A stretch of 64,000 nucleotides of DNA, taken from NCBI GenBank assembly GCA_916048095.2, contig OU696589.1, forward strand, positions 7,455,683 through 7,519,682, given 5' to 3'. A program made the position numbers and the translations under genes. Positions 34,985-63,453 of the stretch are shown here, in pieces; the stretch's first letter is position 1, and each line of letters begins with the position of its first letter. A model generated the notes under the pieces. It saw only the letters and a program-made list of their open reading frames with translations. It was not told the DNA's origin and did not search any database. The stretch comes from Sacculina carcini. Its lineage: Eukaryota; Arthropoda; Thecostraca; Sacculinidae.

Positions 34985-35017
<33 letters not shown>

Positions 35018-38000
35018 GAGTGCATGTTTGATGTGGCTTCCATTTTCACGCCTCGTCTTGCTAGCTGCACTGTGATAGTTTCAATTATGACTCGTGCACA
35101 TTAGTAGTCACAATATTAATCACTGTATTTTGGTCTGGTGGAGGGCGGGCTACTGATGCAAGTATAAACACCCAATAGTGTTGATGTTGGGTCTGAAAGA
35201 AACAGCGAGAAAATGTTGCCTGCACACACTGTGTGGTTTTATGGGTTCTGAAACACTGTATTATAAACTCACTGATGATCAACACGAACATTTGATATCT
35301 AACTCACACAAAATGGCAGGCGATTGAGACTGTATAATTGCGTGGTGAAATATCAAACAATGCACAATACAATATAGTGACTGCAGTTTTCAACGATTTA
35401 TTCACTGATTTGTTGAAAATGAGGGAGGTGCAATGATAGACTAGGCTGGTGAAATCGCATTTATATACCGTGTGTGTGTGTGTGTGTGTGTTAGTTTTGT
35501 GGCTGGCGTGATGCAGCGGGACCGAGTTCCCTCGTTCGAGCGTATGTTATGGCGAGCGTGTCGTGGTAACGTGTTCCTGCGCCAGGCAGACATCGGCTCT
35601 CCGCTCGAAGATCCAGTCACTGTCAGTCTCTATATATACACTGACACACACTGACACAGTCACTGTCAGTCTCTATATATACTGACACACACTGACCCAG
35701 TCACTGCCAGTCTCTATATACACTGACACACACTGACCCAGTCACTGTCAGTCTCTATATACACTGACCCAGTCACTGTCAGTCTCTATATACACTGACA
35801 CACACTGACCCAGTCACTGTCAGTCTCTATATACACTGACCCAGTCACTGTCAGTCTCTATATACACTGACCCAGTCACTGTCAGTCTCTATATACACTG
35901 ACCCAGTCACTGTCAGTCTCTATATACACTGACCCAGTCACTGTCAGTCTCTATATACACTGACACACACTGACCCAGTCACTGTCAGTCTCTATATACA
36001 CTGACACACGGCTGGCTCCTATATGTGTCTGCGTGTTGTTGAACTCACGTCCTCGTTCAGGCATCATGCGGCTCACTATGTGTGTGTGCGTGTGTGTGTT
36101 GAAACAGGGAGACCAGATGTACAAGGTGGTGTTCATCGCGTTCTTCCAGGGAGAGCAGCTGAAGATGCGCGTGAAGAAAATATGCGAGGGGTTTCGAGCC
36201 ACGTTGTACCCGTGTCCTGACACCGTGTCTGAGCGACAGCAGATGCGCATGGGAGTAATGACTCGCATCGACGACCTCAACACGGTACTAATACTCAACC
36301 GAGACATGCTCCACTACACCGACAGTGACTACATGTGTGCCTCACTCTCGCTTGCAGCGAGTGTTACTGTGTTGCGGTGTTGTTGTTGTGTGAGTGCAGG
36401 TGCTCAGTCAGACGCAGGATCATCGGCACCGCGTGCTCGTGGCCGCCGCTAAGAGCGTGCATGGCTGGGCGGTGAAGGTGCGCAAAATCAAGGCCATCTA
36501 CCACACACTCAACCTGTTCAACCTGGACGTCACGCGCAAGTGTCTGATAGCTGAGTGTTGGGCGCCGGCGGCGGACATCGGCGTCGTCCAGATGGCGCTG
36601 CGACGCGGTTGTGAACGGTCTGGCTCGAGCGTGCAGGCCGTGCTCACTCAGCTGGACAATTGTCCGCCACCTCCCACGTTCAACCGCTGCGGCAAAGTGG
36701 CGGCCGGCTTCCAGACACTGGTCGACGCTTACGGCGTGGCCAGCTACCGCGAGATGAACCCAGGTATCCAGTGATTAACTCGGCAACACTGTATTACTGA
36801 GTGATTCAGATATTAAGACACTGTGTGACTGGGTGATTCAGATATTAAGACACTGTGTGACTGAGTGATTCAGATATTATAACACTGTATTACTGAGTGA
36901 TTCAGATATTAAGACACTGTATTACTGAGTGATTCAGATATTAAGACACTGTGTGACTGAGTGATTCAGATATTAAGACACTGTATTACTGAGTGATTCA
37001 GATATTAAGACACTGTGTAACTCAGTGATTCAGATATTAAGACACTGTATTACTGGGTGATTCAGATATTAAGACACTGTGTAACTGAGTGATTCAGATA
37101 TTAAGACACTGTATTACTGAGTGATTCAGATATTAAGAAACTGTATTACTGAGTGATTCAGATATTAAGAAACTGTATTACTGGGTGATTCAGATATTAA
37201 GACACTGTATTACTGGGTGATTCAGATATTAAGACACTGTATTACTAAGTGATTCAGATATTAAGACACTGTGTAACTCAGTGATTCAGATATTAAGACA
37301 CTGTATTACTGAGTGATTCAGATATTAAGAAACTGTATTACTGAGTGATTCAGATATTAAGACACTGTGTGACTCAGTGATTCAGATATTAAGAAACTGT
37401 ATTACTGAGTGATTCAGATATTAAGACACTGTGTAACTCAGTGATTCAGATATTAAGACACTGTATTACTGGGTGATTCAGATATTAAGACACTGTGTAA
37501 CTGAGTGATTCAGATATTAAGACACTGTATTACTGGGTGATTCAGATATTAAGACACTGTGTGACTGAGTGATTCAGATATTAAGACACTGTATTACTGA
37601 GTGATTCAGATATTAAGACACTGTGTAACTGAGTGATTCAGATATTAAGAAACTGTATTACTGGGTGATTCAGATATTAAGACACTGTATTACTAAGTGA
37701 TTCAGATATTAAGACACTGTGTAACTCAGTGATTCAGATATTAAGACACTGTATTACTGAGTGATTCAGATATTAAGAAACTGTATTACTGAGTGATTCA
37801 GATATTAAGACACTGTGTGACTCAGTGATTCAGATATTAAGAAACTGTATTACTGAGTGATTCAGATATTAAGACACTGTGTAACTCAGTGATTCAGATA
37901 TTAAGACACTGTATTACTGGGTGATTCAGATATTAAGACACTGTGTAACTGAGTGATTCAGATATTAAGACACTGTATTACTGGGTGATTCAGATATTAA

Positions 38001-41000
38001 GACACTGTGTAACTGAGTGATTCAGATATTAAGACACTGTATGACTCAGTGATTCAGATATTAAGACACTGTATTACTGAGTGATTCAGATATTAAGACA
38101 CTGTAACTGAGTGATTCAGATATTAAGACACTGTGTGACTGAGTGATTCAGATATTAAGACACTGTGTGACTCAGTGATTCAGATATTAAGACACTGTAT
38201 TACTGGGTGATTCAGATATTAAGAAAATGTGTGACTGAGTGATTCAGATATTAAGACACTGTGTGACTGAGTGATTCAGATATTAAGACACTGTATTACT
38301 GAGTGATTCAGATATTAAGAAACTGTGTAACTGAGTGATTCAGATATTAAGAAACTGTATTACTGGGTGATTCAGATATTAAGACACTGTATTACTAAGT
38401 GATTCAGATATTAAGACACTGTGTAACTCAGTGATTCAGATATTAAGACACTGTATTACTGAGTGATTCAGATATTAAGAAACTGTATTACTGAGTGATT
38501 CAGATATTAAGACACTGTGTGACTCAGTGATTCAGATATTAAGACACTGTATTACTGGGTGATTCAGATATTAAGAAACTGTATTACTGAGTGATTCAGA
38601 TATTAAGACACTGTATTACTGAGTGATTCAGATATTAAGGCACTGTGTGACTCAGTGATTCAGATATTAAGACACTGTATTACTGGGTGATTCAGATATT
38701 AAGACACTGTATTACTAAGTGATTCAGATATTAAGACACTGTATGACTCAGTGATTCAGATATTAAGACACTGTATTACTGGATGATTCAGATATTAAGA
38801 CACTGTATTACTGGGTGATTCAGATATTAAGACACTGTATTACTAAGTGATTCAGATATTAAGACACTGTGTGACTCAGTGATTCAGATATTATGACACT
38901 GTATTACTGAGTGATTCAGATATTAAGAAAATGTGTAACTGAGTGATTCAGATATTAAGAAACTGTATTACTGGATGATTCAGATATTAAGACACTGTAA
39001 CTGGGTGATTCAGATATTAAGACACTGTATTACTGAGTGATTCAGATATTAAGACACTGTGTAACTGAGTGATTCAGATATTAAGACACTGTATTACTGA
39101 GTGATTCAGATATTATGACACTGTATTACTGAGTGATTCAGATATTAAGACACTGTGTGACTGAGTGATTCAGATATTAAGACACTGTGTAACTGAGTGA
39201 TTCAGATATTAAGACACTGTATGACTCAGTGATTCAGATATTAAGACACTGTATTACTGAGTGATTCAGATATTAAGACACTGTAACTGAGTGATTCAGA
39301 TATTAAGACACTGTGTGACTCAGTGATTCAGATATTAAGACACTGTGTGACTGAGTGATTCAGATATTAAGACACTGTATTACTGGGTGATTCAGATATT
39401 AAGAAAATGTGTGACTGAGTGATTCAGATATTAAGACACTGTGTGACTCAGTGATTCAGATATTATGACACTGTATTACTGAGTGATTCAGATATTAAGA
39501 AAATGTGTAACTGAGTGATTCAGATATTAAGAAACTGTATTACTGGATGATTCAGATATTAAGACACTGTGTAACTGAGTGATTCAGATATTAAGACACT
39601 GTATTACTGAGTGATTCAGATATTAAGACACTGTGTAACTGAGTGATTCAGATATTAAGACACTGTATTACTGAGTGATTCAGATATTAAGACACTGTAT
39701 TACTGAGTGATTCAGATATTAAGACACTGTAACTGAGTGATTCAGATATTAAGACACTGTGTAACTGAGTGATTCAGATATTAAGACACTGTGTGACTGA
39801 GTGATTCAGATATTAAGACACTGTATTACTGAGTGATTCAGATATTAAGACACTGTATTACTGAGTGATTCAGATATTAAGACACTGTAACTGGGTGATT
39901 CAGATATTAAGACACTGTATTACTGAGTGATTCAGATATTAAGACACTGTGTAACTGAGTGATTCAGATATTAAGACACTGTATTACTGAGTGATTCAGA
40001 TATTATGACACTGTATTACTGAGTGATTCAGATATTAAGACACTGTATTACTGAGTGATTCAGATATTAAGACACTGTATTACTGAGTGATTCAGATATT
40101 AAGACACTGTGTGACTCAGTGATTCAGATATTAAGACACTGTGTGACTGAGAAGAATTGATGTGATATTTCTTTTTTCAGCACCTTACACGATCATCACG
40201 TTTCCGTTTTTGTTCGCCGTGATGTTTGGCGATTTCGGGCACGGTATTTTGATGGCTGTGTTTGCTGGCTGGATGATAATGAAGGAAGGTCAACTGTCGT
40301 CGAGAAAACTCGGCAACGAGGTGCCTCAGTTCTCGCTCTTCTTGTACACTCACGTCTTCAATCAGCCTGTCTTCTTGTTGTTTGTATTTGCCAAGTGCGT
40401 ATTTTAATTTCAGCAATGACAATTTGCAACGGTATGAGTTTTCTTATTGTTGCATTATACCGGTGAATGTTGATGTGAACTATCAGATAGCGGAGATATT
40501 CTTCGGAGGTCGCTACATCATTTTCCTCATGGGGTTGTTCTCGATCTACACGGGAATCATCTACAATGATATTTTCTCCAAGTCTGTCAACGTGCTCGGC
40601 TCGTCATGGCGTGTCTGTTTCTCACAGCAGGTAATTAACAGTAGCAGTTTGTGTCAGCTAGTGTTGTTCTGCTGACTTAGTGTGTGGTTCTGTTCGCCTC
40701 GTCCACTCGCAATCTCATGATGAGTGATATTCGAGTTGGCTCACTTCATTCTCTCGTTCTGTACGCACACACTCACCGTCATCCAGGGTGTTGCTCGCTC
40801 ACAAACAAATTGTTTGTGTGTGTGTGTGTGTGTGTCTGATATGCTGTCATCCTCAATAGGTATGTGTGTGTGTGTGTGTGCTTTTGTCTTTTATGTATGG
40901 AAGTGTGATTTTCAGTGTATGTGCACTCGTCTGTCTTCTTTTTGTCTGTGTGTATGTGTGTGTGTTGGTGTGTGTGATTGTGAATGTGTGTGTCCTTTGC

Positions 41001-42421
41001 TTGAGTGTGTGTGTACAGCGCCTTAGAGACCCTCTAGGTGTAGGGCGCTGTATATATATATCTTAATGTGATGTAATGTGTGTGTTGGTACTTAGGACAT
41101 AATGCATTCCGAGTCGATGATGTTGCCTCCCGAGAACTCGAGCTGTTATTACGGCACTCCCTACGCTGTCGGCATGGACCCCGTCTGGCAAGTGGCTACC
41201 AACAAAGTGACCTATCAGAACGCGTTCAAAATGAAAGTCTCCGTGCTGCTGGGAGTGGCTCAAATGCTGTTCGGCGTGATTCTGTCTCTGTTCAACTACA
41301 GGTCGGAACATTATGTAGTGTTATGATAATGTATTGTTTCTCATACTATTGTTCAACTACAGGTCGGAACATTATATCAGTGTAATGATAATGTATTGTT
41401 TCTCATACTATTGTTCAACTACAGGTCGAAACATTATATCAGTGTAATGATAATGTATTGTTTCTCATACTATTGTTCAACTACAGGTCGGAACATTATG
41501 TAGTGTTATGATAATGTATTGTTTCTCATACTATTGTTCAACTAACAATTTATAAACACACACACGCACACACACAGAAAGACGAGTGATAAACAGTACT
41601 GCATTCACTTCTGTATCAACGCCAATACAACGATTGTGTGTGTGTGTGTGTGTTTGCGCGCGTGTGTGTGTGTGCGTGTGTGTGTATGTGTGCGCGTGTG
41701 TGTGGCGCAGGTATTTCAAGCGGTCGATGGACGTTGTGACTGCGTTTGTGCCGCAGTTAGTGTTTCTGCTCGCCCTGTTCGGCTGGTTGTGTCTGCTGTG
41801 CGTGCTCAAGTGGAGCATGTACAGTTCGCAGAGTACTGACGTACGCTACGGCAATCACTGTGCCCCCTCACTTCTTCTCATCTTCATCAACATGTTCCTG
41901 ATGAAGGACATGAACGCCGAGCGACAACCTGATGACCCGTGTGACGGCTACTTGTTCGACGGTCAGCGGTCCCTGCAAACAGTGCTGGTGCTGGCCGCCT
42001 TGCTCTGCATTCCCTGCTTGCTCGCTGCCAAACCTGTACTCGTGTGGCGCGCGCGCCGACGACGATACACCGCCTCAAGCTCCGCCCACCTCGCCGATAA
42101 CGACCAATCAGCGCTCAATCTCAATGGTGACGTCACCAGCGACGGGCCGAGCGAGACAGCAATGGAGGAGGATTTCAGCGAGTTGTGCATCCATCAGGCG
42201 ATTCACACGGTCGAGTATGTGCTCGGCTCCGTGTCTCACACGGCCTCGTATCTGCGACTGTGGGCTCTGTCGCTGGCTCATTCACGTCAGTATCACAACA
42301 AACAACTCACTAACTCAATTCACTAACTCATAACGCCATTCACTCACTCATAACGCCATTCACTCACTCAATTCAGGCGCTGATTGTTCAGTGCACAATA
42401 GCGTTCTAGCAATGTGCAATA

Positions 42422-42501
<80 letters not shown>

Positions 42502-43179
42502 TGACAGAGTTGTCAGAGGTATTGTGGACAATGGTGCTGGTGAATGGATTCAACATATCACACGAGTGGTGGGGTGGTATAGTGTTGTTTGTGATATTCG
42601 CCGCGTGGGCGGTGCTCACAGTTAGCATTCTTATTCTGATGGAGGGTCTGTCTGCTTTTCTGCACACACTTCGTCTGCACTGGTAAACCACAAACACAAA
42701 CAAACACAAACAAACACATACACTTCGTCGGTGTTTGGCGTATGTAGTTACGCGCGTGTGTGTCATGTAACATGTATGCGTCTGTGTGTCATGTGTGCAT
42801 GTATATGTCATGTGTATGTGTGTGTGTCATGTGTACGTGTGTATGTGTGTCATGTGTACGTGTGTATGTGTCATGTGTACACGCATGTGTGTGTCATGTG
42901 TACATGTATGTGGGTGTGTGTCATGTGTACATGTGTGTGTATGCGTATGTCATGTGTACATGCGTGTGTGTCGTGTGTCATGTGTACACGCGTGTGTGTG
43001 TCGTGTGTGTCGTGTGTCATGTGTACACGCGTGTGTGTGTGTTTGTACAGGCGTGTATATATATGTGTATGTGTGTGTGTGACAGGGTGGAGTTTCAGTC
43101 CAAGTTCTACAGTGGAGACGGCTATTTGTTTGTACCGTTCAGTTTTAAAGCTATTTTGCGTGAAGAGAGCGAGGAGTAA
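26697..43179 (+). CDS. ATP6V0A1: V-type proton ATPase 116 kDa subunit a
   Basis: Thirteen exons: 26697-26819, 27676-27852, 28168-28296, 33954-34096, 35495-35621, 36108-36284, 36400-36763, 40181-40320, 40487-40630, 41096-41301, 41711-42285, 42508-42682 and 43086-43179, 857 residues, every phase matching. The cytosolic half starts [20 protein letters not shown] and includes [20 protein letters not shown] and [18 protein letters not shown]. The membrane half starts [21 protein letters not shown] and ends with [18 protein letters not shown]. The essential arginine of the proton half-channel is present in [12 protein letters not shown] (about residue 759). Subunit a joins V1 to V0 and carries protons in V-ATPases of endosomes, lysosomes, Golgi and plasma membrane. 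The isoform (a1/a4 type) cannot be decided. A Gln-rich loop ([11 protein letters not shown]) lies in exon 4. Eighty-four percent of the locus is intron, mostly arrays; several repeat the splice donors. Confidence 0.95.
26825..27180 (+). repeat. 68-bp tandem repeat, five copies plus a partial (ATP6V0A intron 1)
   Basis: Units start TCACCGCTGTCTCAC or TCACTTGCTGTCTCA at 26825, 26893, 26961, 27029, 27098 and 27166. The array begins five bases into intron 1, directly behind the donor. Each unit carries TATATATCTGCAG, an acceptor-like word. Confidence 0.95.
27190..27570 (-). mobile_element. tRNA-derived SINE (ATP6V0A intron 1)
   Basis: On the minus strand, 27570-27500 resembles a tRNA head: an A box TGGTGTAGTTG, an anticodon arm CCCGC-CTCACAA-GCGGG (anticodon CAC, valine-like) and a B box GGTTCGAAACC. 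The acceptor stem does not pair, so it is not a working tRNA. A SINE body with CCTGTCCACCCAGCAGTAAA follows. The left limit is approximate. Confidence 0.75.
27838..28070 (+). repeat. 76-bp repeat of the exon 2 donor, three copies (ATP6V0A)
   Basis: ATGATAGACCTCGAG, the last 15 bases of exon 2, followed by GTAATC, recurs at 27838, 27914 and 27990, exactly 76 bp apart; a partial fourth copy starts at 28066. Donor positions are 27853 (real, by frame), 27929 (GTAATC) and 28005 (GTAACC). Use of a decoy would add 76 or 152 bases and shift the frame. Confidence 0.95.
28978..33080 (+). repeat. 4.1-kb array of a 30-bp unit (ATP6V0A intron 3)
   Basis: Unit parts are CTAACTGACA, C/TCATACATCC and CTGTCTCACA in this order, about 135 units, with 20-bp short units lacking the first block. 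A block near 30361-30600 recurs 300 bp later. Because 30 is a multiple of three, the minus strand stays open for up to 97 codons ([14 protein letters not shown]), which is not a gene. CACTAAC in most units matches the U2 branch-point consensus on the transcribed sense strand. Confidence 0.98.
34984..35018 (+). repeat. (GATA)n tetranucleotide microsatellite
   Basis: About eight perfect TAGA units lie in ATP6V0A intron 4. Confidence 0.95.
35612..36003 (+). repeat. 30-40 bp repeat of the exon 5 donor, 11 copies (ATP6V0A)
   Basis: Exon 5 ends CCAGTCACT followed by GTCAGTCTCTATATA. The joined boundary CAGTCACTGTCAGTCTCTAT is repeated eleven times, with ACACTGAC spacers of 10 or 20 bp. Ten copies keep the GT; one reads GCCAGT. 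The reading frame and family alignment point to the first copy (exon end 35621) as the real donor. Confidence 0.95.
36786..40150 (+). repeat. 3.4-kb array of a 32-bp unit (ATP6V0A intron 7)
   Basis: The unit parts are ACTGAGTGATTCAGATATTA and AGACACTGTATT, about 105 copies with GTGTAACT/ATTACTG variants. It starts some 20 bp after the exon 7 donor and stops about 30 bp before the exon 8 acceptor, so it is essentially the whole intron. Every copy contains TGATTCAG, an acceptor-like word. Confidence 0.98.
41015..41070 (+). repeat. retroposon 3'-end hairpin (ATP6V0A intron 9)
   Basis: CAGCGCC, then AGACCCTCTAGG, then GGGCGCTG forms a stem-loop, followed by TATATATATATCTTAATG. The same layout occurs at 49260-49313 and at the 3' end of the LINE in RCHY1, so these are probably tails of related LINE/SINE copies. 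Confidence 0.65.
41289..41545 (+). repeat. 61-bp repeat of the exon 10 donor, four copies (ATP6V0A)
   Basis: TTCAACTACAG, the end of exon 10, followed by GTCGGAAC recurs at 41291, 41352, 41414 and 41476. A fifth truncated copy at 41537 reads TTCAACTAAC and has lost the donor. Decoy donors lie at 41363, 41425 and 41487. Confidence 0.95.
42423..42500 (+). repeat. (TG)39 microsatellite directly before exon 12 acceptor (ATP6V0A)
   Basis: A pure TG run of about 78 bp ends at ATGACAG, the exon 12 acceptor. No pyrimidine tract lies between. Confidence 0.97.
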
Positions 43180-48438: not shown

Positions 48439-49747
48439 ATGTCTGCTGATAAACAAGCTATTCTTCCTTTGGTTGAGGAAAAGCCTGTGGGAACAATGAA
48501 TACATATCAGACAAAAAGGTAATGTTCACCTTTTTCAATATCCGTTCATCGGTCTATGCGACACACTGTTTTCAATACATTTGTCATGTATTGTCATTTA
48601 TTTATTCTCATGTATCTCGTTTTCCACATGTTTGACTGGCGCTCTTATTTTACCCGTGTGGTGGAACATTATTGTTTATCCTGTAAGTGGGTCGGGTCGA
48701 ATTTATTTGTTTATGTGTTTATTGTCATTTTGTCGAAATTTTTAGTTTTTAATTTTAGTCTGTGTAAGCCTGTTGTAGCCAGTCTTGTCAATATTTGCGT
48801 TGGTATACAATGACATGCATAATAATGCTGATGCACCAATATCATGAAAGGCAAACGGCGTTATCCATTACATCATTGCTCACGTGTGTGGCAATGCATG
48901 CACGCTTAATGTGTCTGTTAAACATGCTGTTCAGTGCAAGTAGATTTCTGTAAAATGTGTGTGTGTATTGTGAGCTCACAGAATTTGTGATCCACTGGTG
49001 TGAAGTTTGATTCGTCTCTGTTGATTCTATGTTTTTCCCCAATATGACCAACACTTGTTATTAATGTCTCATGTTGTATCTGTTTAACATAGAGCACGAG
49101 ATGACTCGCTGTTCAGACAGTACATCACCATATTTGCTGTTGTCTCTGCCTACTGGTGAGTGGCTATCTCAATGTACGTGTGTATGGGCTTGAATGTGTG
49201 TGTGCTCGTCATTGTGTATGTGTATGACTCTGGTGCTTGAGTGTGTGCATGTGTGTGTGAGCGCTTTTCAGACCCTCGGGTGAAAAGCGCGATATAAATG
49301 TCTTAATGTAATGTGTATGTATGTGTGTGTATGTGTGTGTCTGGTGCTGGTTTGACTGTTTCTCTTGTTGTGGCATCTCGGTGTTTTATGTTTCCTATAA
49401 TAATTTCCGTGAGTTGCATATTAACACGTTTCACCAATCATGATAATTTGCTGATGGTCTGCATCATGATGGTGGAGTCAGGCTGGTGTCCATCACCATG
49501 GTGTTCGCCAACAAGACTCTGCTCAGTGGAGACAGTCTGCGCGCGCCATTCTTCATCACCGGCTTCCAGTGTGTCGCGACAGTGCTGCTGTGCGCCACAT
49601 TGTCTCACATTGCGCCACTTGTGTCTCGCGTCGTCACATTGCCCACGGTGCAGTTCCGTCCCCAGCTCTTGCTCAAGGTAATCACCCTGTCAATTGTGCC
49701 GCGTTCACTCAATATGATTTTCCTTTTATATCTGTGTCCCACGTGAC

Positions 49748-49780
<33 letters not shown>

Positions 49781-49789
49781 TGTGTGTGT

Positions 49790-49834
<45 letters not shown>

Positions 49835-52800
49835 GGCAGGTGTTGCCCTTGTCAGTGGTGTTTGTCGGCATGATCGTCTTCAACAACCTGTGTCTGCAGA
49901 ACGTTGATGTCTCGTTCTACTACATCGGCCGATCTCTCACCACCGTCTTCAACGTTCTCTGCTCGTTCCTCATTCTCGGTGAGATGTTTCTGTCACAAAC
50001 ATAGCGTTTATAATGTGACTCAAGCACGCCATTTTACAGGACAACTTATCACATTGTACTTATCCCTCCAGCTTCTAGTCGCATTCAATGCAAAGTTTCC
50101 CATACTGCACATTTTCTATCTGATTTGTTTAAAGTAATTTTACACAAGGAATTTCATATACGTCAAAAAAGTTTTCATTACTTATTTCAATGCACTTATT
50201 GGAATTTCTGTTAATAATTTGGTCTCTTATTTATTGTGAACAATTTTTGAATGATAATTTGTAATTTTAGAATTAGGTATTAATTTTATAAATTATAATA
50301 AATAATGTTCGTAATTTATTGTTTTATGTGTTGTATTTTGTTAAAGTTCTTGAGGTTGAGGTCACATAATATTATATCAGTCACTTATGAGACAGCGTTG
50401 TCAGAGCTGTTTTGACTGTGTGACTGGCTGATTTGGTTGGTTGCCTCTGTCAATTACTACATCGTTGTGTGCATATCATTGTTCTACTGTGTATCATTGC
50501 ACACTGGCTCAATCGTGCACGCGCTTGTTTCAGTGGTGTTCATCTTAATATCTGTGTGTGTGCGTGTTAATATGGTGATACATTCACCAGCATTGTGTTT
50601 TCAACATGGCTGGCTTTATCATTGTTTTCCTGACTCGTTCAGCAGTGTCGGCCTGTTGTTTGTCAACTGCCGTCTGATACATTATCACTGGTGTCGTGTA
50701 ACATGTTTGTGATAGAGCGTTTGTGCTCGCCGTATACTGCGGTGAATTGTGTGTTAATTGCACTGTGATTCAAGCGCTCTCACTCACAAATACAGTCAAA
50801 CATTAATATAAGACGCATCGATGAAGCGAGATAATCAGTTGGGCGTGATAGAGTCTTGAGATAGAGTCTTGAGATAGTATTGAGATAGAGTCTTGAGATA
50901 TTATTGAGATAGAGTCTTGAGATATTATTGAGATAGTCTTGAGATAGAGTCCTGAGATAGTATTGAGATAGAGTCTTGAGATAGTCTTGAGATATTATTG
51001 AGATAGTATTGAGATAGTCTTGAGATAGAGTCTTGAGATAGAGTCTTGAGATAGAGTCTTGAGATAGTATTGAGATAGAGTCTTGAGATAGAGTCTTGAG
51101 ATAGTCTTGAGATAGAGTCTTGAGATAGAGTCTTGAGATAGAGTCTTGAGATAGAGTCTTGAGATATTATTGAGATAGTATTGAGATAGAGTCTTGAGAT
51201 ATTATTGAGATAGTATTGAGATAGAGTCTTGAGATAGAGTCTTGAGATATTATTGAGATAGTATTGAGATATAGTCTTGAGATAGTATTGAGATAGAGTC
51301 TTGAGATAGAGTCTTGAGATATAGTCTTGAGATAGAGTCTTGAGATAGTATTGAGATAGAGTCTTGAGATAGAGTCTTGAGATAGAGTCTTGAGATATAG
51401 TCTTGAGATAGAGTCTTGAGATAGTCTTGAGATAGTATTGAGATAGAGTCTTGAGATAGAGTCTTGAGATAGAGTCTTGAGATATTATTGAGATAGAGTC
51501 TTGAGATAGTATTGAGATAGTATTGAGATAGAGTCTTGAGATAGTATTGAGATAGAGTCTTGAGATAGTCTTGAGATAGAGTCTTGAGATAGTATTGAGA
51601 TAGAGTCTTGAAATAGAGTCTTGAGATAGAGTCTTGAGATAGTATTGAGATAGAGTCTTGAGATAGTATTGAGATAGAGTCTTGAGATAGTATTGAGATA
51701 GAGTCTTGAAATAGAGTCTTGAGATAGTCTTGAGATAGAGTCTTGAGATAGAGTCTTGAAATAGAGTCTTGAGATAGAGTCTTGAGATAGAGTCTTGAAA
51801 TAGAGTCTTGAGATAGTATTGAGATAGAGTCTCGAGATAGAATCTTGAGATAGAATCTTGAGATAGAGTCTTGAGATAGAGTCTTGAGATAGAGTCTTGA
51901 GATAGTATTGAGATATAGTCTTGAGATAGTCTTGAGATAGTCTTGAGATAGAGTCTTGAGATAGAATCTTGAGATATAGTCTTGAGATAGAGTCTTGAGA
52001 TAGAGTCTTGAGATAGTATTGAGATAGTCTTGAGATAGAGTCTTGAGATAGAGTCTTGAGATATAGTCTTGAGATAGAGTCTTGAGATAGTCTTGAGATA
52101 GAGTCTTGAGATAGTCTTGAGATAGAGTCTTGAGATAGTATTGAGATAGAGTCTTGAGATAGTCTTGAGATAGAGTCTTGAGATAGAATCTTGAGATAGA
52201 ATCTTGAGATAGAGTCTTGAGATAGAGTCTTGAGATAGAGTCTTGAGATAGAGTCTTGAGATAATATTGAGATAGTCTTGAGATAGAGTCTTGAGATAGA
52301 GTCTTGAGATAGTCTTGAGATAGAGTCTTGAGATAGAATCTTGAGATAGAGTCTTGAGATAGTATTGAGATAGAATCTTGAGATAGAGTCTTGAGATAGT
52401 CTTGAGATAGAGTCTTGAGATAGTATTGAGATAGAGTCTTGAGATAGTATTGAGATAGTATTGAGATAGAGTCTTGAGATAGAGTCTTGAGATAGAGTCT
52501 TGAGATATAGTCTTGAGATAGAGTCTTGAGATAGAGTCTTGAGATAGTCTTGAGATAGAGTCTTGAGATAGTCTTGAGATAGTATTGAGATAGAGTCTTG
52601 AAATAGAGTCTTGAGATAGAGTCTTGAGATAGTATTGAGATAGAGTCTTGAGATAGAGTCTTGAGATAGAGTCTTGAGATAGAGTCTTGAGATAGTCTTG
52701 AGATAGAGTCTTGAGATAGTCTTGAGATAGAGTCTTGAGATAGAGTCTTGAGATAGAGTCTTGAGATATTATTGAGATAGTATTGAGATAGAGTCTTGAG

Positions 52801-55800
52801 ATAGAGTCTTGAGATATTATTGAGATAGAGTCTTGAGATAGTATTGAGATATAGTCTTGAGATAGTATTGAGATAGAGTCTTGAGATAGAGTCTTGAGAT
52901 ATAGTCTTGAGATAGAGTCTTGAGATAGAGTCTTGAGATAGTATTGAGATAGAGTCTTGAGATAGAGTCTTGAGATATAGTCTTGAGATATAGTCTTGAG
53001 ATAGAGTCTTGAGATAGTCTTGAGATAGTATTGAGATAGAGTCTTGAGATAGAGTCTTGAGATAGAGTCTTGAGATATTATTGAGATAGAGTCTTGAGAT
53101 AGTATTGAGATAGTATTGAGATAGAGTCTTGAGATAGTATTGAGATAGAGTCTTGAGATAGTCTTGAGATAGAGTCTTGAGATAGTATTGAGATAGAGTC
53201 TTGAAATAGAGTCTTGAGATAGAGTCTTGAGATAGTATTGAGATAGAGTCTTGAGATAGTATTGAGATAGAGTCTTGAAATAGAGTCTTGAGATAGAGTC
53301 TTGAGATAGAGTCTTGAGATAGAGTCTTGAAATAGAGTCTTGAGATAGAGTCTTGAGATAGAGTCTTGAAATAGAGTCTTGAGATAGTATTGAGATAGAG
53401 TCTCGAGATAGAATCTTGAGATAGAATCTTGAGATAGAGTCTTGAGATAGAGTCTTGAGATAGAGTCTTGAGATAGTATTGAGATATAGTCTTGAGATAG
53501 TCTTGAGATAGTCTTGAGATAGAGTCTTGAGATAGAATCTTGAGATATAGTCTTGAGATAGAGTCTTGAGATAGAGTCTTGAGATAGTATTGAGATAGTC
53601 TTGAGATAGAGTCTTGAGATAGAGTCTTGAGATAGAGTCTTGAGATAATATTGAGATAGTCTTGAGATAGAGTCTTGAGATAGAGTCTTGAGATAGTCTT
53701 GAGATAGAGTCTTGAGATAGAATCTTGAGATAGAGTCTTGAGATAGAGTCTTGAGATAGTATTGAGATAGAATCTTGAGATAGAGTCTTGAGATAGTCTT
53801 GAGATAGAGTCTTGAGATAGTATTGAGATAGAATCTTGAGATAGAGTCTTGAGATAGAGTCTTGAGATAGTATTGAGATAGAGTCTTGAGATAGTATTGA
53901 GATAGAGTCTTGAGATAGAGTCTTGAGATATAGTCTTGAGATAGAGTCTTGAGATAGAGTCTTGAGATAGTCTTGAGATAGAGTCTTGAGATAGAGTCTT
54001 GAGATAGTATTGAGATAGAGTCTTGAAATAGAGTCTTGAGATAGAGTCTTGAGATAGTATTGAGATAGAGTCTTGAGATAGAGTCTTGAGATAGAGTCTT
54101 GAGATAGAGTCTTGAGATAGTCTTGAGATAGAGTCTTGAGATAGTCTTGAGATAGAGTCTTGAGATAGTATTGAAATAGAGTCTTGAGATAGAGTCTCGA
54201 GATAGTATTGAGATAGAGTCTCGAGATAGTATTGAGATAGAGTCTTGAGATAGTATTGAGATAGAGTCTTGAGATAGTATTGAGATAGTCTTGAGATAGA
54301 GTCTTGGACCCAGATTTTTTCAGGTTTCTATTAAAAAATATATAAATAATAAGTGAAATTATAAATAAAATATACTATATCATTGGTGTAAATAGTTGTA
54401 TTTATTTGTCTTTATTTCACTAGGAAACACGTAAATTCTGTTTTATCCTCACGTACCACGAGGATCAAAATAATATAAAGTCAAATCGGTATAATCGGCG
54501 CAATCAGATCGACAACGCGGTGTAATTCTGTGCACCCAACTAGCACCTTATATCGCGATGTTTGACTGTGCTCTCTCTCACGTGCTTTCATCACTGGCTG
54601 CTCGATATTTGCTTTTTTCCATATGCATTTGTATATTGTATGATGTTATATATCATGGCTGTTATATTTGATGATACGGATATTATGTGCTTACTGGAAT
54701 GTGTTTGTTTTTACTCGCTGAGTTATGTCAAAGTACACATAGAAGGTCGACTATAGCTGTATAGGGGACTGTAGGGGATGGGCTTGCGGCAGGGGAGTGA
54801 CATTCATTGAGCGAGTTAACACTGTCTGTCTGTCTGACAATTGGCACAATTGACACACGCACATAGACACAAAGACAAACATATATGACGCGTAGCAGAT
54901 CGAGTTATTTCACAAGTTAGGTTTTATAATTATATAATAATATATTGTAATGTGTTATGTATAAATGTATGTCATCGGTTATAGCAGTGTTCATAGCAGC
55001 AGTTATAATGTGTGGTTTCATGTCAGCATCACACCAACACTTGTTTGATGATAAGTAGTACTCGCTAGTGATCTGATTCACTTGATCTGTTCGCTGTTTC
55101 CAATTATGTGTGTGTGTGTGTGTGTGTCGTGCTGGAAGGTCAGAGAACATGTGTGTCCAGTCTTGTGTGTTGTGCGGTGATCATCCTGGGTTTTTTGCTG
55201 GGAGTCGACCAGGAAAAAGTGGTTGGTCAGTGTCCAGGCGCCTCATCATGTCTTGTCTCTGTCATTCACTGTCGTGCTATTTCCAGCGGTCATTTTGAGT
55301 TGCCACTTTTCTTCAGTGTTGTATATATCTCATTGACAGCAGTGTTGTCTTCTACATTGGTTTTGTTTCGCACTGAATGTGCTCAATTTTCGTGAATTCT
55401 TGAGAATACCCCTGTTTGATATATCACCATTTTCCTCATATACAAATACAAAATGTTACAATAATTCGCTTGTTATTCTGGCGTTGATCATCATTGTTCG
55501 ACGTTTAACAGGCACATTGTCGGTGAACGGAGTTGTTTTCGGCGTTTTGGCCTCTTTTTTCGTCTCTCTCTACGCTATTTTCACTAAAAAGGTGCACTTA
55601 CACACACATTAACATCACACTTACACACACATGACGGTGGAAATGCAAATGCTTATGCTATAAAATACTAAAACTGTGCTTGTTTTCCTAGTATTAAATT
55701 CACTTATTTTGTGTCTGCAAAGGTATTAATATCTTGTGGTTGATTGCAAGTTCTGCGATTTGGCTTAACGTTTTCAAAACTTGTATTCAATTAATTTGTG

Positions 55801-57308
55801 TTGTTAATCTTATAATCTCCTATACTTTCTTGTGCAAATCAACTGTGTTTTTCTATTTATTTTGCACTTGCATTGTTATTGTATGTGTGGTCATTATAAG
55901 CTGCATACTAAGATATATAATTTATTACTGTGCTAACTATGGAAAGGCTACACTAAAATGTTGCGGATAGAAAAATGCATCGTATGTGTGTGTATGTGTG
56001 TGTGTGTGGCTGGTGTACTAAAGGTCACCATGTTTTGTGTGTGACATTATCCGTGTGTGTGTGCGTGTCTTGCATGCGGCTCATTGTAAATATTTATCCA
56101 GTGCTCATGTGTTCAGTGTATCATCACAAACAAAGTGGCCCGTGCTGAAGGAACTACATGTGCACAACACTTGTCGCTAAAACACACTGCCATGACAGAC
56201 ATCATTTGTATCCGTGTGTATGTATGTGTGTGTGTGTATGTGACAGTGTGCATCTCTGTGTGTCTACATGCACATACCGTAATCACACCCAAGTATATTC
56301 AGCTCCCATTTTCGTGTCAAATTTCAACATTAAAAGTTGGGGCAGCAGCATTATACTTGAGTATGTGAGAAATACCAGTTTGAAAAGTCGAATTGTGTGT
56401 AAGGCGAGATTAAATTGTGTAATAAACTAACTCCGGAAGAATTTCATCAAATTTTTGGTGACATTGATGATGATGATAATGATGACTTTGTTGAATTCTG
56501 ATTGAAATGCATAAAATGCAACTTTTTGTCAGAAATAATTTTATCTGAAAAAGGGCAGCGTTATACCCAGCGTTATACCTATATGTCCAAAAAAGACCAG
56601 TTTTTCTATTAAAACGTGGAGGCAGCATTTTACTTGGGTAATTAAGATGTTTTGTGCTTGTGTGTGTGTGTGTTAGGTGTTGTCAGTGGTTGATGGCAGT
56701 GTGTATGTGTGTGTGTGTGTGTGTGTTAGGTGTTGTCAGTGGTTGATGACAGTGTGTATGTGTGTGTTAGGTGTTACCAGTGGTTGATGGCAGTGTGTAT
56801 GTGTGTGTGTGTGTTAGGTGTTGTCAGTGGTTGATGGCAGTGTGTATATGTGTGTGTGTGTGTGTGTTAGGTATTGTCAGTGGTTGATGGCAGTGTATGT
56901 GTGTGTGTGTGTGTGTTAGGTGTTGTCAGTGGTTGATGGCAGTGTGTATATGTGTGTGTGTGTGTGTGTTAGGTGTTGTCAGTGGTTGATGGCAGTGTGT
57001 GTGTGTGTGTGTGTTAGGTGTTGTCAGTGGTTGATGGCAGTGTGTATATGTGTGTGTGTGTATGTGTGTGTGTGTGTGTGTGTGTTAGGTGTTGTCAGTG
57101 GTTGATGGCAGTGTGTGTGTGTGTGTGTGTTAGATGTTGTCAGTGGTTGATGACAGTGTGTGTATGTGTGTGTGTGTGTGTGTGTTAGGTATTGTCAGTG
57201 GTTGATGGCAGTGTATGTGTGTGTGTGTTAGGTGTTGTCAGTGGTTGATGGCAGTGTGTGTATGTGTGTGTGTGTGTATGTGTGTTAGATGTTGTCAGTG
57301 GTTGATGA

Positions 57309-57356
<48 letters not shown>

Positions 57357-57712
57357 GGTGTTGTCAGTGGTTGATGACAGTGTGTATGTATGTGTGTGTG
57401 TGTGTTAGGTGTTGTCAGTGGTTGATGACAGTGTGTATGTGTGTGTGTTAGGTGTTGTCAGTGGTTGATGACAGTGTGTGTGTGTGTGTGTGTGTGTGTT
57501 AGGTGTTGTCAGTGGTTGATGGCAGTGTGTGTGTGTGTGTTAGGTGTTGTCAGTGGTTGATGGCAGTGTGTGTATGTGTGTGTGTGTGTGTTAGGTGTTG
57601 TCAGTGGTTGATGGCAGTGTGTATATGTGTGTGTTAGGTGTTGTCAGTGGTTGATGGCAGTGTGTATATGTGTGTGTGTGTGTGTGTGTTAGATGTTGTC
57701 AGTGGTTGATGA

Positions 57713-57764
<52 letters not shown>

Positions 57765-58263
57765 GGTGTTGTCAGTGGTTGATGACAGTGTGTATGTATG
57801 TGTGTGTGTGTGTTAGGTGTTGTCAGTGGTTGATGACAGTGTGTATGTGTGTGTGTTAGGTGTTGTCAGTGGTTGATGGCAGTGTATGTGTGTGTTAGGT
57901 GTTGTCAGTGGTTGATGGCAGTGTGTGTGTGTATGTGTGTGTGTTAGGTGTTGTCAGTGGTTGATGGCAGTGTGTATATGTGTGTTAGGTGTTGTCAGTG
58001 GTTGATGACAGTGTGTGTGTGTGTGTGTGTGTGTGTTAGGTGTTGTCAGTGGTTGATGGCAGTGTGTATATGTGTGTTAGGTGTTGTCAGTGGTTGATGG
58101 CAGTGTGTATATGTGTGTGTGTGTGTATGTGTGTTAGATGTTGTCAGTGGTTGATGACAGTGTGTGTATGTGTGTGTGTGTGTGTTAGGTGTTGTCAGTG
58201 GTTGATGGCAGTGTGTATATATGTGTGTGTGTGTGTGTGTTAGATGTTGTCAGTGGTTGATGA

Positions 58264-58305
<42 letters not shown>

Positions 58306-58477
58306 TAGGTGTTGTCAGTGGTTGATGACAGTGTGTATGTATGTGTGTGTGTGTGTTAGGTGTTGTCAGTGGTTGATGGCAGTGTGTGTGTGTGTGTGTT
58401 AGGTGTTGTCAGTGGTTGATGGCAGTGTGTATATGTGTGTGTGTGTGTGTGTGTTAGATGTTGTCAGTGGTTGATGA

Positions 58478-58523
<46 letters not shown>

Positions 58524-59104
58524 GGTGTTGTCAGTGGTTGATGGCAGTGTATGTGTGTGTTAGGTGTTGTCAGTGGTTGATGGCAGTGTGTATATGTGTG
58601 TGTGTTAGGTGTTGTCAGTGGTTGATGGCAGTGTGTGTGTGTGTGTTAGGTGTTGTCAGTGGTTGATGACAGTGTATGTGTGTGTGTTAGGTGTTGTCAG
58701 TGGTTGATGGCAGTGTGTATGTGTGTGTGTGTGTGTGTGTGTATGTGTGTGTGTGTGTGTTAGGTGTTGTCAGTGGTTGATGGCAGTGTATGTGTGTGTT
58801 AGGTGTTGTCAGTGGTTGATGGCAGTGTGTGTGTGTATGTGTGTGTGTTAGGTGTTGTCAGTGGTTGATGGCAGTGTGTATATGTGTGTTAGGTGTTGTC
58901 AGTGGTTGATGGCAGTGTGTGTGTGTGTGTTAGGTGTTGTCAGTGGTTGATGGCAGTGTGTATATGTGTGTTAGGTGTTGTCAGTGGTTGATGGCAGTGT
59001 GTATATGTGTGTGTGTGTGTATGTGTGTTAGATGTTGTCAGTGGTTGATGACAGTGTGTGTATGTGTGTGTGTGTGTGTTAGGTGTTGTCAGTGGTTGAT
59101 GGCA

Positions 59105-59140
<36 letters not shown>

Positions 59141-59467
59141 TAGATGTTGTCAGTGGTTGATGACAGTGTGTGTGTGTGTGTGTATGTGTTAGGTGTTGTC
59201 AGTGGTTGATGACAGTGTGTATGTATGTGTGTGTGTGTGTGTTAGGTGTTGTCAGTGGTTGATGGCAGTGTGTGTGTGTGTGTGTTAGGTGTTGTCAGTG
59301 GTTGATGGCAGTGTGTATATGTGTGTGTGTTAGGTGTTGTCAGTGGTTGATGGCAGTGTGTATATGTGTGTGTGTGTGTGTATGTGTGTTAGATGTTGTC
59401 AGTGGTTGATGACAGTGTGTGTATGTGTGTGTGTGTGTGTGTTAGGTGTTGTCAGTGGTTGATGGCA

Positions 59468-59499
<32 letters not shown>

Positions 59500-60160
59500 T
59501 AGATGTTGTCAGTGGTTGATGGCAGTGTGTGTGTGTGTGTATGTGTTAGGTGTTGTCAGTGGTTGATGACAGTGTGTATGTGTGTGTGTGTGTGTGTTAG
59601 GTGTTGTCAGTGGTTGATGGCAGTGTGTGTGTGTGTGTTAGGTGTTGTCAGTGGTTGATGGCAGTGTGTGTATGTGTGTGTGTGTGTATGTGTGTTAGAT
59701 GTTGTCAGTGGTTGATGGCAGTGTATATATGTGTGTGTGTTAGGTGTTGTCAGTGGTTGATGACAGTGTGTATGTGTATGTGTTAGGTGTTGTCAGTGGT
59801 TGATGGCAGTGTGTGTGTGTGTGTTGTGTGTGTTAGGTGTTGTCAGTGGTTGATGGCAGTGTGTGTGTGTGTGTGTGTGTTAGGTGTTGTCAGTGGTTGA
59901 TGGCAGTGTGTGTGTGTGTGTGTGTGTGTGTTAGGTGTTGTCAGTGGTTGATGACAGTGTGTATGTATGTGTGTGTGTGTGTTAGGTGTTGTCAGTGGTT
60001 GATGGCAGTGTGTGTGCGTGTGTGTGTGTGTGTTAGGTGTTGTCAGTGGTTGATGGCAGTGTGTATATGTATGTGTGTGTGTGTGTGTTAGGTGTTGTCA
60101 GTGGTTGATGGCAGTGTGTATGTGTGTGTGTGTGTTAGGTGTTGTCAGTGGTTGATGGCA

Positions 60161-60211
<51 letters not shown>

Positions 60212-60247
60212 TGTGTGTGTGTGTTAGGTGTTGTCAGTGGTTGATGA

Positions 60248-60283
<36 letters not shown>

Positions 60284-60654
60284 GGTGTTGTCAGTGGTTG
60301 ATGGCAGTGTGTGTGTGTGTGTGTGTGTGTTAGGTGTTGTCAGTGGTTGATGGCAGTGTGTATGTGTGTGTGTGTGTTAGGTGTTGTCAGTGGTTGATGG
60401 CAGTGTGTATATGTGTGTTAGGTGTTGTCAGTGGTTGATGACAGTGTGTGTGTGTGTGTGTGTTGTGTGTGTAAGGTGTTGTCAGTGGTTGATGGCAGTG
60501 TGTGTGTGTGTGTATGTATGTGTGTGTGTGTGTTAGGTGTTGTCAGTGGTTGATGGCAGTGTGTGTGTGTGTGTGTTAGGTGTTGTCAGTGGTTGATGGC
60601 AGTGTGTATATGTGTGTGTGTGTGTGTGTGTTAGATGTTGTCAGTGGTTGATGA

Positions 60655-60693
<39 letters not shown>

Positions 60694-60902
60694 TGTGTGT
60701 GTGTTAGGTGTTGTCAGTGGTTGATGGCAGTGTATGTGTGTGTTAGGTGTTGTCAGTGGTTGATGGCAGTGTGTATATGTGTGTGTGTTAGGTGTTGTCA
60801 GTGGTTGATGGCAGTGTGTGTGTGTGTGTTAGGTGTTGTCAGTGGTTGATGACAGTGTATGTGTGTGTGTTAGGTGTTGTCAGTGGTTGATGGCAGTGTG
60901 TA

Positions 60903-60934
<32 letters not shown>

Positions 60935-61287
60935 TGTGTGTGTGTTAGGTGTTGTCAGTGGTTGATGGCAGTGTATGTGTGTGTTAGGTGTTGTCAGTGG
61001 TTGATGGCAGTGTGTGTGTGTATGTGTGTGTGTTAGGTGTTGTCAGTGGTTGATGGCAGTGTGTATATGTGTGTTAGGTGTTGTCAGTGGTTGATGGCAG
61101 TGTGTGTGTGTGTGTTAGGTGTTGTCAGTGGTTGATGGCAGTGTGTATATGTGTGTTAGGTGTTGTCAGTGGTTGATGGCAGTGTGTATATGTGTGTGTG
61201 TGTATGTGTGTTAGATGTTGTCAGTGGTTGATGACAGTGTGTGTATGTGTGTGTGTGTGTGTTAGGTGTTGTCAGTGGTTGATGGCA

Positions 61288-61321
<34 letters not shown>

Positions 61322-61648
61322 TAGATGTTGTCAGTGGTTGATGACAGTGTGTGTGTGTGTGTGTATGTGTTAGGTGTTGTCAGTGGTTGATGACAGTGTG
61401 TATGTATGTGTGTGTGTGTGTGTTAGGTGTTGTCAGTGGTTGATGGCAGTGTGTGTGTGTGTGTGTTAGGTGTTGTCAGTGGTTGATGGCAGTGTGTATA
61501 TGTGTGTGTGTTAGGTGTTGTCAGTGGTTGATGGCAGTGTGTATATGTGTGTGTGTGTGTGTATGTGTGTTAGATGTTGTCAGTGGTTGATGACAGTGTG
61601 TGTATGTGTGTGTGTGTGTGTGTTAGGTGTTGTCAGTGGTTGATGGCA

Positions 61649-61680
<32 letters not shown>

Positions 61681-62341
61681 TAGATGTTGTCAGTGGTTGA
61701 TGGCAGTGTGTGTGTGTGTGTATGTGTTAGGTGTTGTCAGTGGTTGATGACAGTGTGTATGTGTGTGTGTGTGTGTGTTAGGTGTTGTCAGTGGTTGATG
61801 GCAGTGTGTGTGTGTGTGTTAGGTGTTGTCAGTGGTTGATGGCAGTGTGTGTATGTGTGTGTGTGTGTATGTGTGTTAGATGTTGTCAGTGGTTGATGGC
61901 AGTGTATATATGTGTGTGTGTTAGGTGTTGTCAGTGGTTGATGACAGTGTGTATGTGTATGTGTTAGGTGTTGTCAGTGGTTGATGGCAGTGTGTGTGTG
62001 TGTGTTGTGTGTGTTAGGTGTTGTCAGTGGTTGATGGCAGTGTGTGTGTGTGTGTGTGTGTTAGGTGTTGTCAGTGGTTGATGGCAGTGTGTGTGCGTGT
62101 GTGTGTGTGTGTTAGGTGTTGTCAGTGGTTGATGACAGTGTGTATGTATGTGTGTGTGTGTGTTAGGTGTTGTCAGTGGTTGATGGCAGTGTGTGTGCGT
62201 GTGTGTGTGTGTGTTAGGTGTTGTCAGTGGTTGATGGCAGTGTGTATATGTATGTGTGTGTGTGTGTGTTAGGTGTTGTCAGTGGTTGATGGCAGTGTGT
62301 ATGTGTGTGTGTGTGTTAGGTGTTGTCAGTGGTTGATGGCA

Positions 62342-62382
<41 letters not shown>

Positions 62383-62418
62383 TGTGTGTGTGTGTTAGGT
62401 GTTGTCAGTGGTTGATGA

Positions 62419-62452
<34 letters not shown>

Positions 62453-62661
62453 GGTGTTGTCAGTGGTTGATGGCAGTGTGTGTGTGTGTGTGTGTGTTAG
62501 GTGTTGTCAGTGGTTGATGGCAGTGTGTATGTGTGTGTGTGTGTTAGGTGTTGTCAGTGGTTGATGGCAGTGTGTATATGTGTGTTAGGTGTTGTCAGTG
62601 GTTGATGACAGTGTGTGTGTGTGTGTGTGTTGTGTGTGTAAGGTGTTGTCAGTGGTTGATG

Positions 62662-62704
<43 letters not shown>

Positions 62705-63453
62705 GGTGTTGTCAGTGGTTGATGGCAGTGTGTGGCAGTTGTCATTCATCAACAACATCAACGCTGCCATCATGTTAGCAGTGTTGATGTTTTGTGCCGG
62801 CGAGACGCGAGTTGTGATGCATTATGAACGTATTGGCTCGCCTCATTTCTGGCTGCTTATGAGCTTGGCCGGTGTGTTCGGTCTCGCCATAGGTTATGTG
62901 ACAGGCCTGCAAATTCAGGTAGCTCCACACACACACACTCACACATACACACACACACATAAACACACACATACACGTGCCTCCTCACTATCACACTGTC
63001 ACTTGTCATAGACAAAATCACCAATGTTATGTGCACGGCAGTTGATATGTGGCAATGTGTTATGACGCCTGCTTAATTGACTGCTTGCACCGAGACTGCT
63101 CACATATGTGTCTCATTATTACTCACATCAGACAAGTCACACACACACACACACACCGTGTCTACATGCATCCTAATAACTCGCGCCTAGACTATCACAC
63201 TAGATACACACGAGTGTGTGTGTGTGTGTGTCAGGTGACTTCGCCGCTCACACACAACATATCGGGCACTGCCAAGGCGTGTGCACAGACAGTGTTGGGC
63301 TCGTGGTGGGCGGCACAGTGGCGATCCCAGTTGTGGTGGCTTGGCAACTTGCTAGTGCTCTCTGGCAGCGCTGCTTACACGCGTGTCAAGCAGAAACAAA
63401 TGGCCGCCGCCGCCGCTGGACGCGCCAGGGACTCGAACATGACCCGAGCATGA
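48439..63453 (+). CDS. SLC35C1: GDP-fucose transporter 1 (Golgi)
   Basis: Eight exons: 48439-48518, 49093-49155, 49482-49677, 49840-49978, 55139-55225, 55512-55591, 62706-62918 and 63235-63453, 358 residues (human 364), phases all consistent. A multi-pass protein of the drug/metabolite transporter fold, typically ten helices. Family words: [31 protein letters not shown], the very conserved [88 protein letters not shown] and GSAAYT. It imports GDP-fucose into the Golgi lumen in exchange for GMP, for fucosylation of glycans and of Notch-type proteins. The tail is alanine/arginine-rich, not like human. Introns 4 and 6 hold 3.5-kb and 6-kb arrays; the latter repeats the exon 7 acceptor. Confidence 0.95.
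49260..49313 (+). repeat. retroposon 3'-end hairpin (SLC35C1 intron 2)
   Basis: GCGCTTTTCA and TGAAAAGCGC form a perfect 10-bp stem around GACCCTCGGG, followed by GATATAAATGTCTTAATG. It has the same design as 41015-41070 and the LINE 3' end. Confidence 0.7.
50848..54306 (+). repeat. 3.5-kb array of 11- and 13-bp units (SLC35C1 intron 4)
   Basis: It mixes GAGATAGAGTCTT (13 bp), GAGATAGTCTT, GAGATAGTATT and GAGATATTATT (11 bp). Rare variants act as markers: GTCTCGAGATAGAATC occurs near 51829 and 53400, about 1.57 kb apart, showing a large internal duplication. It has no relation to the splice sites of this intron. Confidence 0.97.
56675..62705 (+). repeat. 6-kb array repeating the exon 7 acceptor and exon start (SLC35C1 intron 6)
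   Basis: Each unit is (TG)n, then TTAG, then GTGTTGTCAGTGGTTGATGG and CAGTGTG, the last 27 bases being the first nine codons of exon 7 (VLSVVDGSV). Unit length varies from about 33 to 75 bp with the TG tract, giving well over 100 units. Variants include TTAGATG, GATGACAG and TAAGG. The final unit at 62701-62732 continues into TGGCAGTTG and is the real exon. A block of about 2.17 kb is duplicated within the array (about 58480-60480 and 60660-62640). Confidence 0.97.

Follow-up and report, generated by a model that had tools for sequence, protein, structure and literature searches.

Tandem copies of an exon border and its splice acceptor in SLC35C1 of Sacculina carcini, and related arrays at nearby exon borders

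The window analysed here, a 64,000-nt stretch of contig OU696589.1 (C24:7455683-7519682) from the 264-Mb, 43-contig genome of Sacculina carcini, carries on its plus strand a SLC35C1 gene (48439..63453) in which intron 6 ends in a long tandem array built from copies of its own 3' border. The gene was delimited by an intact-frame reading, Pfam and protein relatives. Eight coding exons with GT-AG borders join into an intact frame of 358 amino acids, the protein matches the Pfam family TPT and, among the best 120 of 2185 protein matches, the named top relatives are mostly GDP-fucose transporters, the nearest being those of the barnacles Pollicipes (67% identity) and Amphibalanus (64%). These results uphold the identity proposed in a preliminary description of this DNA, namely SLC35C1, a GDP-fucose transporter. 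Intron 6 (55592..62705, plus strand, 7114 nt) opens with the donor AAAG/GTGCAC, where the slash marks the exon/intron border, and is followed by exon 7 (62706..62918, plus strand, 213 nt). Further upstream, intron 4 of the same gene holds a 13-nt minisatellite of 281 copies (50847-54306).

The array (56659..62705, plus strand) occupies the 3' end of intron 6 and consists of 119 units of (TG)n-TTAG followed by 25-29 nt from the start of exon 7; the corresponding first nucleotides of exon 7 itself make the 120th copy. Taken as a 25-nt motif, the exon-7 edge is present 120 times between 56677 and 62706, that is, in 119 intronic copies and in the true exon edge. A genome-wide search of the readable sequence (stretches reading N lying outside it), with up to 3 mismatches, retrieved 120 forward and 0 reverse matches, while a control with the reversed pattern gave 0. 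Since this total equals the window's own count and the listed places all lie in the window, no further copies of the edge were found elsewhere in the searched genome at this threshold. Each unit is composed of TTAG or TAAG, then 25 nt from the start of exon 7, then a linker rich in TG. The tetranucleotide preceding the copies is TTAG in 118 cases and TAAG in 2, so that the AG is kept in 120/120. Units measure 39-89 nt (mean 50.7), with a length divisible by 3 in 43 of the 119, and they fall into 6 core types with many linker types. Over the 25 nt, 78 of the 120 copies are identical to exon 7, and the peptides encoded are VLSVVDGS (80 copies), VLSVVDDS (22), MLSVVDDS (13), MLSVVDGS (4) and VLPVVDGS (1). 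The preliminary description, which had reported more than a hundred tandem copies of (TG)n-TTAG and exon edge before the real exon, most of them with an intact exon part, was therefore correct on both counts, as it was in placing the array before exon 7; its start has to be moved, the TG tract beginning at about 56659 instead of 56675. Beyond position 25 of the exon, the 119 units agree with it to 91-100% at positions 26-28, to 52% at position 29 and to 0% at positions 30-32. Exon 7 has its own GTGTGTG run at positions 23-29 (Ser-Val-Trp codons), and the identity of the units with the exon stops where this run stops. The array also contains 16 pure TG runs of at least 24 nt, a length that PMC12962679 gives for the poly(UG) fold.

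The splice signals of the units were compared with those of the mapped genes by means of a weight matrix built from the 17 mapped acceptors of SLC35C1 and of a neighbouring V-ATPase gene, exon 7 being omitted when the array was scored. By this standard, each copy is a plausible acceptor, as had been claimed: the lowest-scoring copy (8.4) exceeds 7 of the 17 mapped acceptors (exon 7's own being among the 17), 105 of the 120 copies reach at least their median, and, among the 3266 AGs on the window's plus strand that lie beyond the array, the median copy stands at the 99.5th percentile. The highest score belongs to the true acceptor, tied with 38 other copies. Acceptor score was accordingly rejected as what singles out the true site, as 39 copies have it in common. 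Branch points follow the pattern yUnAy. The exon-derived TTGAT fits this pattern and is found in 120/120 copies, 22-72 nt (mean 33.7) upstream of the next acceptor. No AG occurs inside any of the 119 linkers; one AG, 6 nt after the candidate branch-point A, precedes the next acceptor in 119/119. An AG very near the branch point is likely unusable, and this one is probably too close for use. Thus each unit holds an acceptor, a branch-point candidate and an exon edge. Moreover, the unit junction reads AG/AT in 17 of the 120 copies and AG/GT in the other 103, and the latter recreates a donor, AAG/GTGTTG, of 2.92 bits (5.09 for the intron 6 donor). This value lies below 16 of the 18 mapped donors, which span 0.87-9.25 bits, and at the 88th percentile of the plus-strand GTs of the window. 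The ratchet points of recursive splicing, where a good donor directly follows an acceptor, have the consensus YAG/GTRAGT; GTGTTG departs from it and, at 2.92 bits, is no such donor.

The intact 358-aa frame requires the acceptor before 62706. If splicing goes to an upstream acceptor and the remaining array is retained, the reading frame is open through to the gene's end in 0/119 cases, so that the SLC35C1 protein depends on the exon-proximal site. Extra-unit protein isoforms made by simple retention are thereby ruled out, and the suggestion that the gene might give rise to a family of products with extra units finds no support at the level of proteins. Removal of whole units, in turn, leaves the message unchanged. 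Because 103 of the 120 junctions are AG/GT, a second splice could turn a transcript joined to an upstream unit into the correct message.

The array carries traces of its own history. Units 37-75 (58525..60475, plus strand, 1951 nt) and units 80-118 (60708..62642, plus strand, 1935 nt) are the first and second copies of a recent block duplication; these two 39-unit blocks of about 1.95 kb differ by 1 substitution and 6 TG-indel events. Unit 3 (56771..56795, plus strand), close to the exon-distal end, is the sole VLPVVDGS copy, with TTA CCA in place of TTG TCA, and the other 119 copies, exon included, are without proline. Among the best 120 of 2185 matches, the same residue of SLC35C1 relatives is Pro in 110, Ser in 6 and another residue in 4, the four nearest having Pro. 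In a comparison made after unit 3 had been seen, the routes from the common unit to VLPVVDGS amounted to 1 of 207 adjacent double changes, 19 of 2484 double changes of any kind and 1 of 72 single changes. On the simplest reading, unit 3 would be a fossil of an older, ancestral exon edge, and the Ser form would later have replaced Pro in exon 7 and the remaining units. Since the exon edge belongs to the array, its codons can share the concerted evolution of the array, and the coding codons at the edge of exon 7 appear to evolve in concert with an intronic repeat.

The preliminary description knew a single case, that of SLC35C1; there are now four cases in two genes, one of them the neighbouring gene. 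The latter encodes V-ATPase V0 subunit a (26697..43179, plus strand). Twelve exons were mapped with a human sequence as guide, which left unplaced the 5' edge of exon 9 and the part of the protein that corresponds roughly to human residues 146-176, and Pfam matched 4/4 of the exon pieces submitted. Three donor arrays, all on the plus strand, repeat a 3' exon edge together with its donor. The first (27836..28070) has three copies of an exon edge with CTCGAG/GTAATC in a 76-nt unit, the third copy reading GTAACC. The second (35613..36009) has eleven copies with GTCACT/GTCAGT, spaced by 31-43 nt; one of them reads GCCAGT and has no GT donor, which leaves 10 with GT. The third (41289..41544) has four copies with CTACAG/GTCGGA, spaced by 61-62 nt, the third copy reading GTCGAA. 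Extra copies would keep the frame, if used, in 0/2, 0/10 and 0/3 cases, respectively. These arrays emerged from a survey of the 36 exon edges of the two genes with 20-nt probes (up to 3 mismatches, within 8 kb), in which 4 edges had extra tandem copies (119, 10, 3 and 2 extra) and the other 32 had none under the same settings. Four of the probed edges had been set one base off, and the exon 9 acceptor had no true placement; all four positives are other edges. Two introns of the V-ATPase gene contain other repeats. A 32-nt minisatellite of 105 copies (36786-40151) begins about 22 nt past the donor, ends about 29 nt short of the following exon and copies neither splice site. A 30-nt minisatellite of 140 copies (28977-33051) has CTAAC, which resembles a branch-point motif, in its unit.

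Two candidates lie in the flanks; the best 45 of 216 pairings of open reading frames (ORFs) with arrays were inspected by eye for such cases. To the left of the window, a CP2-like gene on the minus strand (L009:3745 and below, into L010) has 43 copies of about 55 nt of a 3' exon edge with the donor GAG/GTACC. GT is present in 43/43, there is one 1.3-kb gap, and the spacing is mostly 86 nt plus multiples of 8; extra copies would keep the frame in 0/42. The array sits on the exon that follows the one with the Pfam CP2 domain, the array-bearing exon itself being without Pfam match. To the right, a DHHC-like gene (L011:8690-8990) has a putative acceptor and exon start three times, at spacings of 90 and 98 nt; its upstream exons match Pfam DHHC, one above and one below the cut-off, and the repeated exon has no Pfam match. 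Both are probably further splice-site arrays. In the next 20 kb to the right, 11 arrays (two of at least 100 bp) were seen and no exon-edge array was recognized by eye, without gene models.

The region is rich in minisatellites, a 104-kb block containing 54 non-overlapping arrays of period at least 10. How often arrays would touch exon borders by chance was estimated for the two mapped genes. Of their 18 arrays, 4 span an exon edge, where 1.07-1.25 are expected (P 0.012-0.023) when each array is collapsed to one unit and the founders are placed at random. A first null model, which had yielded P 0.0004-0.002, was dropped because gene lengths in it were inflated by the arrays. With about 100 readable kb out of 264 Mb covered, the excess of border-spanning arrays is a lead and carries no genome-wide claim.

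Several arrangements of this general kind have been described. Human introns from tandem arrays, reportedly treated by Zhuo in 2007, are said to have their splice sites in direct tandem repeats, with both intron ends within the repeat; SLC35C1 likewise has splice sites inside tandem repeats, but only one intron end in the repeat. The minisatellite of human IFI6 (6-16) reportedly has a 12-nt unit in about 26 copies. IFI6 is described as having a splice-donor minisatellite (Turri, 1995, via PMC4526556), so that one exon border has several splice sites of the same type. Tandem units carrying an exon border and a splice site are likewise found at the SLC35C1 acceptor (120 copies) and at the V-ATPase donors (3, 11, of which 10 with GT, and 4 copies); in IFI6, however, the sites are donors, whereas the SLC35C1 array consists of 120 acceptors and is accompanied by donor arrays in the next gene. 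For human UBC and VCX3A, tandem arrays of dual-specific splice sites are described, and 792 human introns are counted inside tandem repeats (PMC10809524). As in UBC, AGGT stands at the unit junction (103/120 units in SLC35C1) and the message is readable after removal of whole units. The UBC units, in contrast, are coding and a multiple of three in length, whereas those of SLC35C1 (39-89 nt, 43/119 multiples of 3) break the frame when retained, 0/119 being open. Intron gain by tandem duplication is illustrated by the potato RdRp gene, where the splice signals were inherited, and by 24-bp AGGT repeats in fission yeast (PMC4974935). There, too, a duplicated intron/exon border can pass on a branch site, a tract and a 3' splice site, and such a border is found in SLC35C1 at the sequence level only (TTGAT in 120/120, with one AG between). 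The difference is that one or a few duplications there produce a new intron, whereas 119 extra copies here end one intron. In a limited, title- and abstract-level search of the open-licence literature, no acceptor array of this size and no such local recurrence was found described. The statement that this is not a described arrangement thus stands as to size and recurrence and has to be qualified as to kind, relatives being known in IFI6, UBC and intron gain. What is notable against these relatives is the size of the array and the recurrence in the neighbouring gene.

The composition of the intron ends was considered in relation to the choice of the site. In zebrafish, introns with dinucleotide repeats at opposite ends are spliced independently of U2AF2 (Lin, 2016, via PMC9198270). 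Intron 6 of SLC35C1 resembles them in having an AC-rich 5' end (55592..55632, plus strand), predicted to pair with the UG tracts of the array, a prediction against which the negative control speaks. The predicted end-to-end duplex of -68 kcal/mol is the strongest among 17 introns. Within the last 60 nt of the introns, at least three TG are found in 12/17 and CA in 1/17, and the 5' ends are CA-rich on average (0.279 vs 0.148 for the window). In contrast to the zebrafish case, matched ends over the 17 introns pair no better than shuffled ones (mean -24.2 vs -22.6 kcal/mol, P 0.21), and a control with reversed 3' ends pairs equally well (-24.4 vs -24.2 kcal/mol). Repeat pairing of intron ends was therefore rejected as a general rule for choosing sites. 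Compared with the other copies, the true acceptor is 5th, 4th and 4th of 120 in pairing energy (for 40, 60 and 80 nt, respectively) and 4th in length of the TG run, which is suggestive only.

Together, these data favour, as the probable explanation, a splice-site minisatellite that arose from a tandem duplication spanning the exon border, grew by copying of units and blocks, and is tolerated since splicing takes the exon-proximal copy. The founding event may have been an exchange or slippage between the intronic (TG)n and the GTGTGTG of the exon, which starts 22 nt into exon 7, whereby the piece between the two TG runs (TTAG and exon edge) would have been duplicated. Because the identity between units and exon ends with the exonic GTGTGTG, the founding duplication most simply joined the TG runs of intron and exon. 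Growth by unit and block duplication followed, the 39-unit block of about 2 kb being its clearest recent event. Exon 6 would then join the last acceptor by exon definition, this being the only acceptor that directly precedes the 213-nt exon with its donor. Use of an upstream unit would yield an RNA either broken in frame or repaired by a second splice at AG/GT, so that expansion would be nearly silent at the protein level and hence tolerated. The same process may have acted at further exon borders in the neighbourhood. Most of these carry donor arrays, in which the copy nearest the exon is the first. In this proposal, exon definition would make the choice, and re-splicing is a possible means of repair.

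Several points weigh against this explanation. The use of 62706 is deduced solely from the intactness of the coding frame, and the best acceptor score is shared with 38 copies. Upstream copies are transcribed first, so that substantial mis-splicing is possible, and the donor that would rescue it is weak (2.92 vs 5.09 bits, below 16/18 mapped donors). Moreover, border-spanning arrays exceed the chance expectation only modestly (4/18 against 1.07-1.25, P 0.012-0.023), and the excess comes from two genes, one of which was picked because its case was known. An ordinary intronic minisatellite that touches the exon by chance, with no special link to splice sites, would suit a region rich in minisatellites, in which 14 of the 18 arrays of the mapped genes span no exon edge. 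The same excess, even if modest, and the presence of acceptor, branch-point candidate and exon edge in every SLC35C1 unit nevertheless make such an accident somewhat unlikely.

The AG/GT junctions of 103 units also suit recursive, dual-specific splicing, in which the array would be removed stepwise through the recreated donors until exon 7 is reached, all paths giving the same mRNA. UBC employs a tandem array of such sites (PMC10809524), and the length of the array, 6 kb, would expose the early acceptors before the last one. We consider it unlikely, given a donor at the 88th percentile of the window's GTs and 17 AG/AT units that would halt stepwise removal. If upstream sites were used frequently, the array could instead be a poison-splicing regulator, its length setting the level of SLC35C1 through frame-broken, degraded RNA. 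The copies do score like real acceptors and none of the 119 upstream ones keeps the frame, but nothing in the analysis links array length to expression, and the same layout in the unrelated V-ATPase gene better fits a general mutational process, so that a regulatory role seems quite improbable. That the array or its copy number was made by the assembler might be suspected from a near-identical 1.95-kb block occurring twice. Against this, 1 base and 6 TG tracts distinguish the two blocks, the units comprise 6 core types and many linker types, and the V-ATPase gene has three more arrays of like design at its exon borders; an artefact is thus very hard to credit, though the true number of copies may differ.

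Beyond the splice-site minisatellite of SLC35C1 itself, it can be suggested, as a tentative idea that we would not yet favour, that such minisatellites form a regular class in this genome, with donors and acceptors in many genes, hidden by exon-proximal splicing and, at AG/GT junctions, by unit-wise re-splicing. Coding exon edges would thereby join concertedly evolving arrays, and the conserved proline at the edge of SLC35C1 exon 7 would already have been replaced together with the array. This suggests a route by which codons at the start of an exon are coupled to a rapidly evolving repeat. One animal offers a natural series of 120, 11, 4 and 3 splice-site copies next to intact exons of two genes, to which two further genes probably add 43 and 3 copies. 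The series bears on the old questions of how the spliceosome chooses among equal acceptors and how tandem duplications turn into introns.

A few other elements were seen. In a 200-kb stretch elsewhere on the contig, from which nothing was drawn, the ORFs appear by eye to be rich in retroelements, without family search. Within the window, minus-strand ORFs at 14441-16434 look, by eye, like the reverse transcriptase of a non-LTR (long terminal repeat) element. A 15-nt repeat (8427-8502) lies within a minus-strand ORF of 649 aa, which contains HVIDE repeats, and a 20-nt repeat of 16 copies, 99% alike, with several frames open, is found at 20582-20906.

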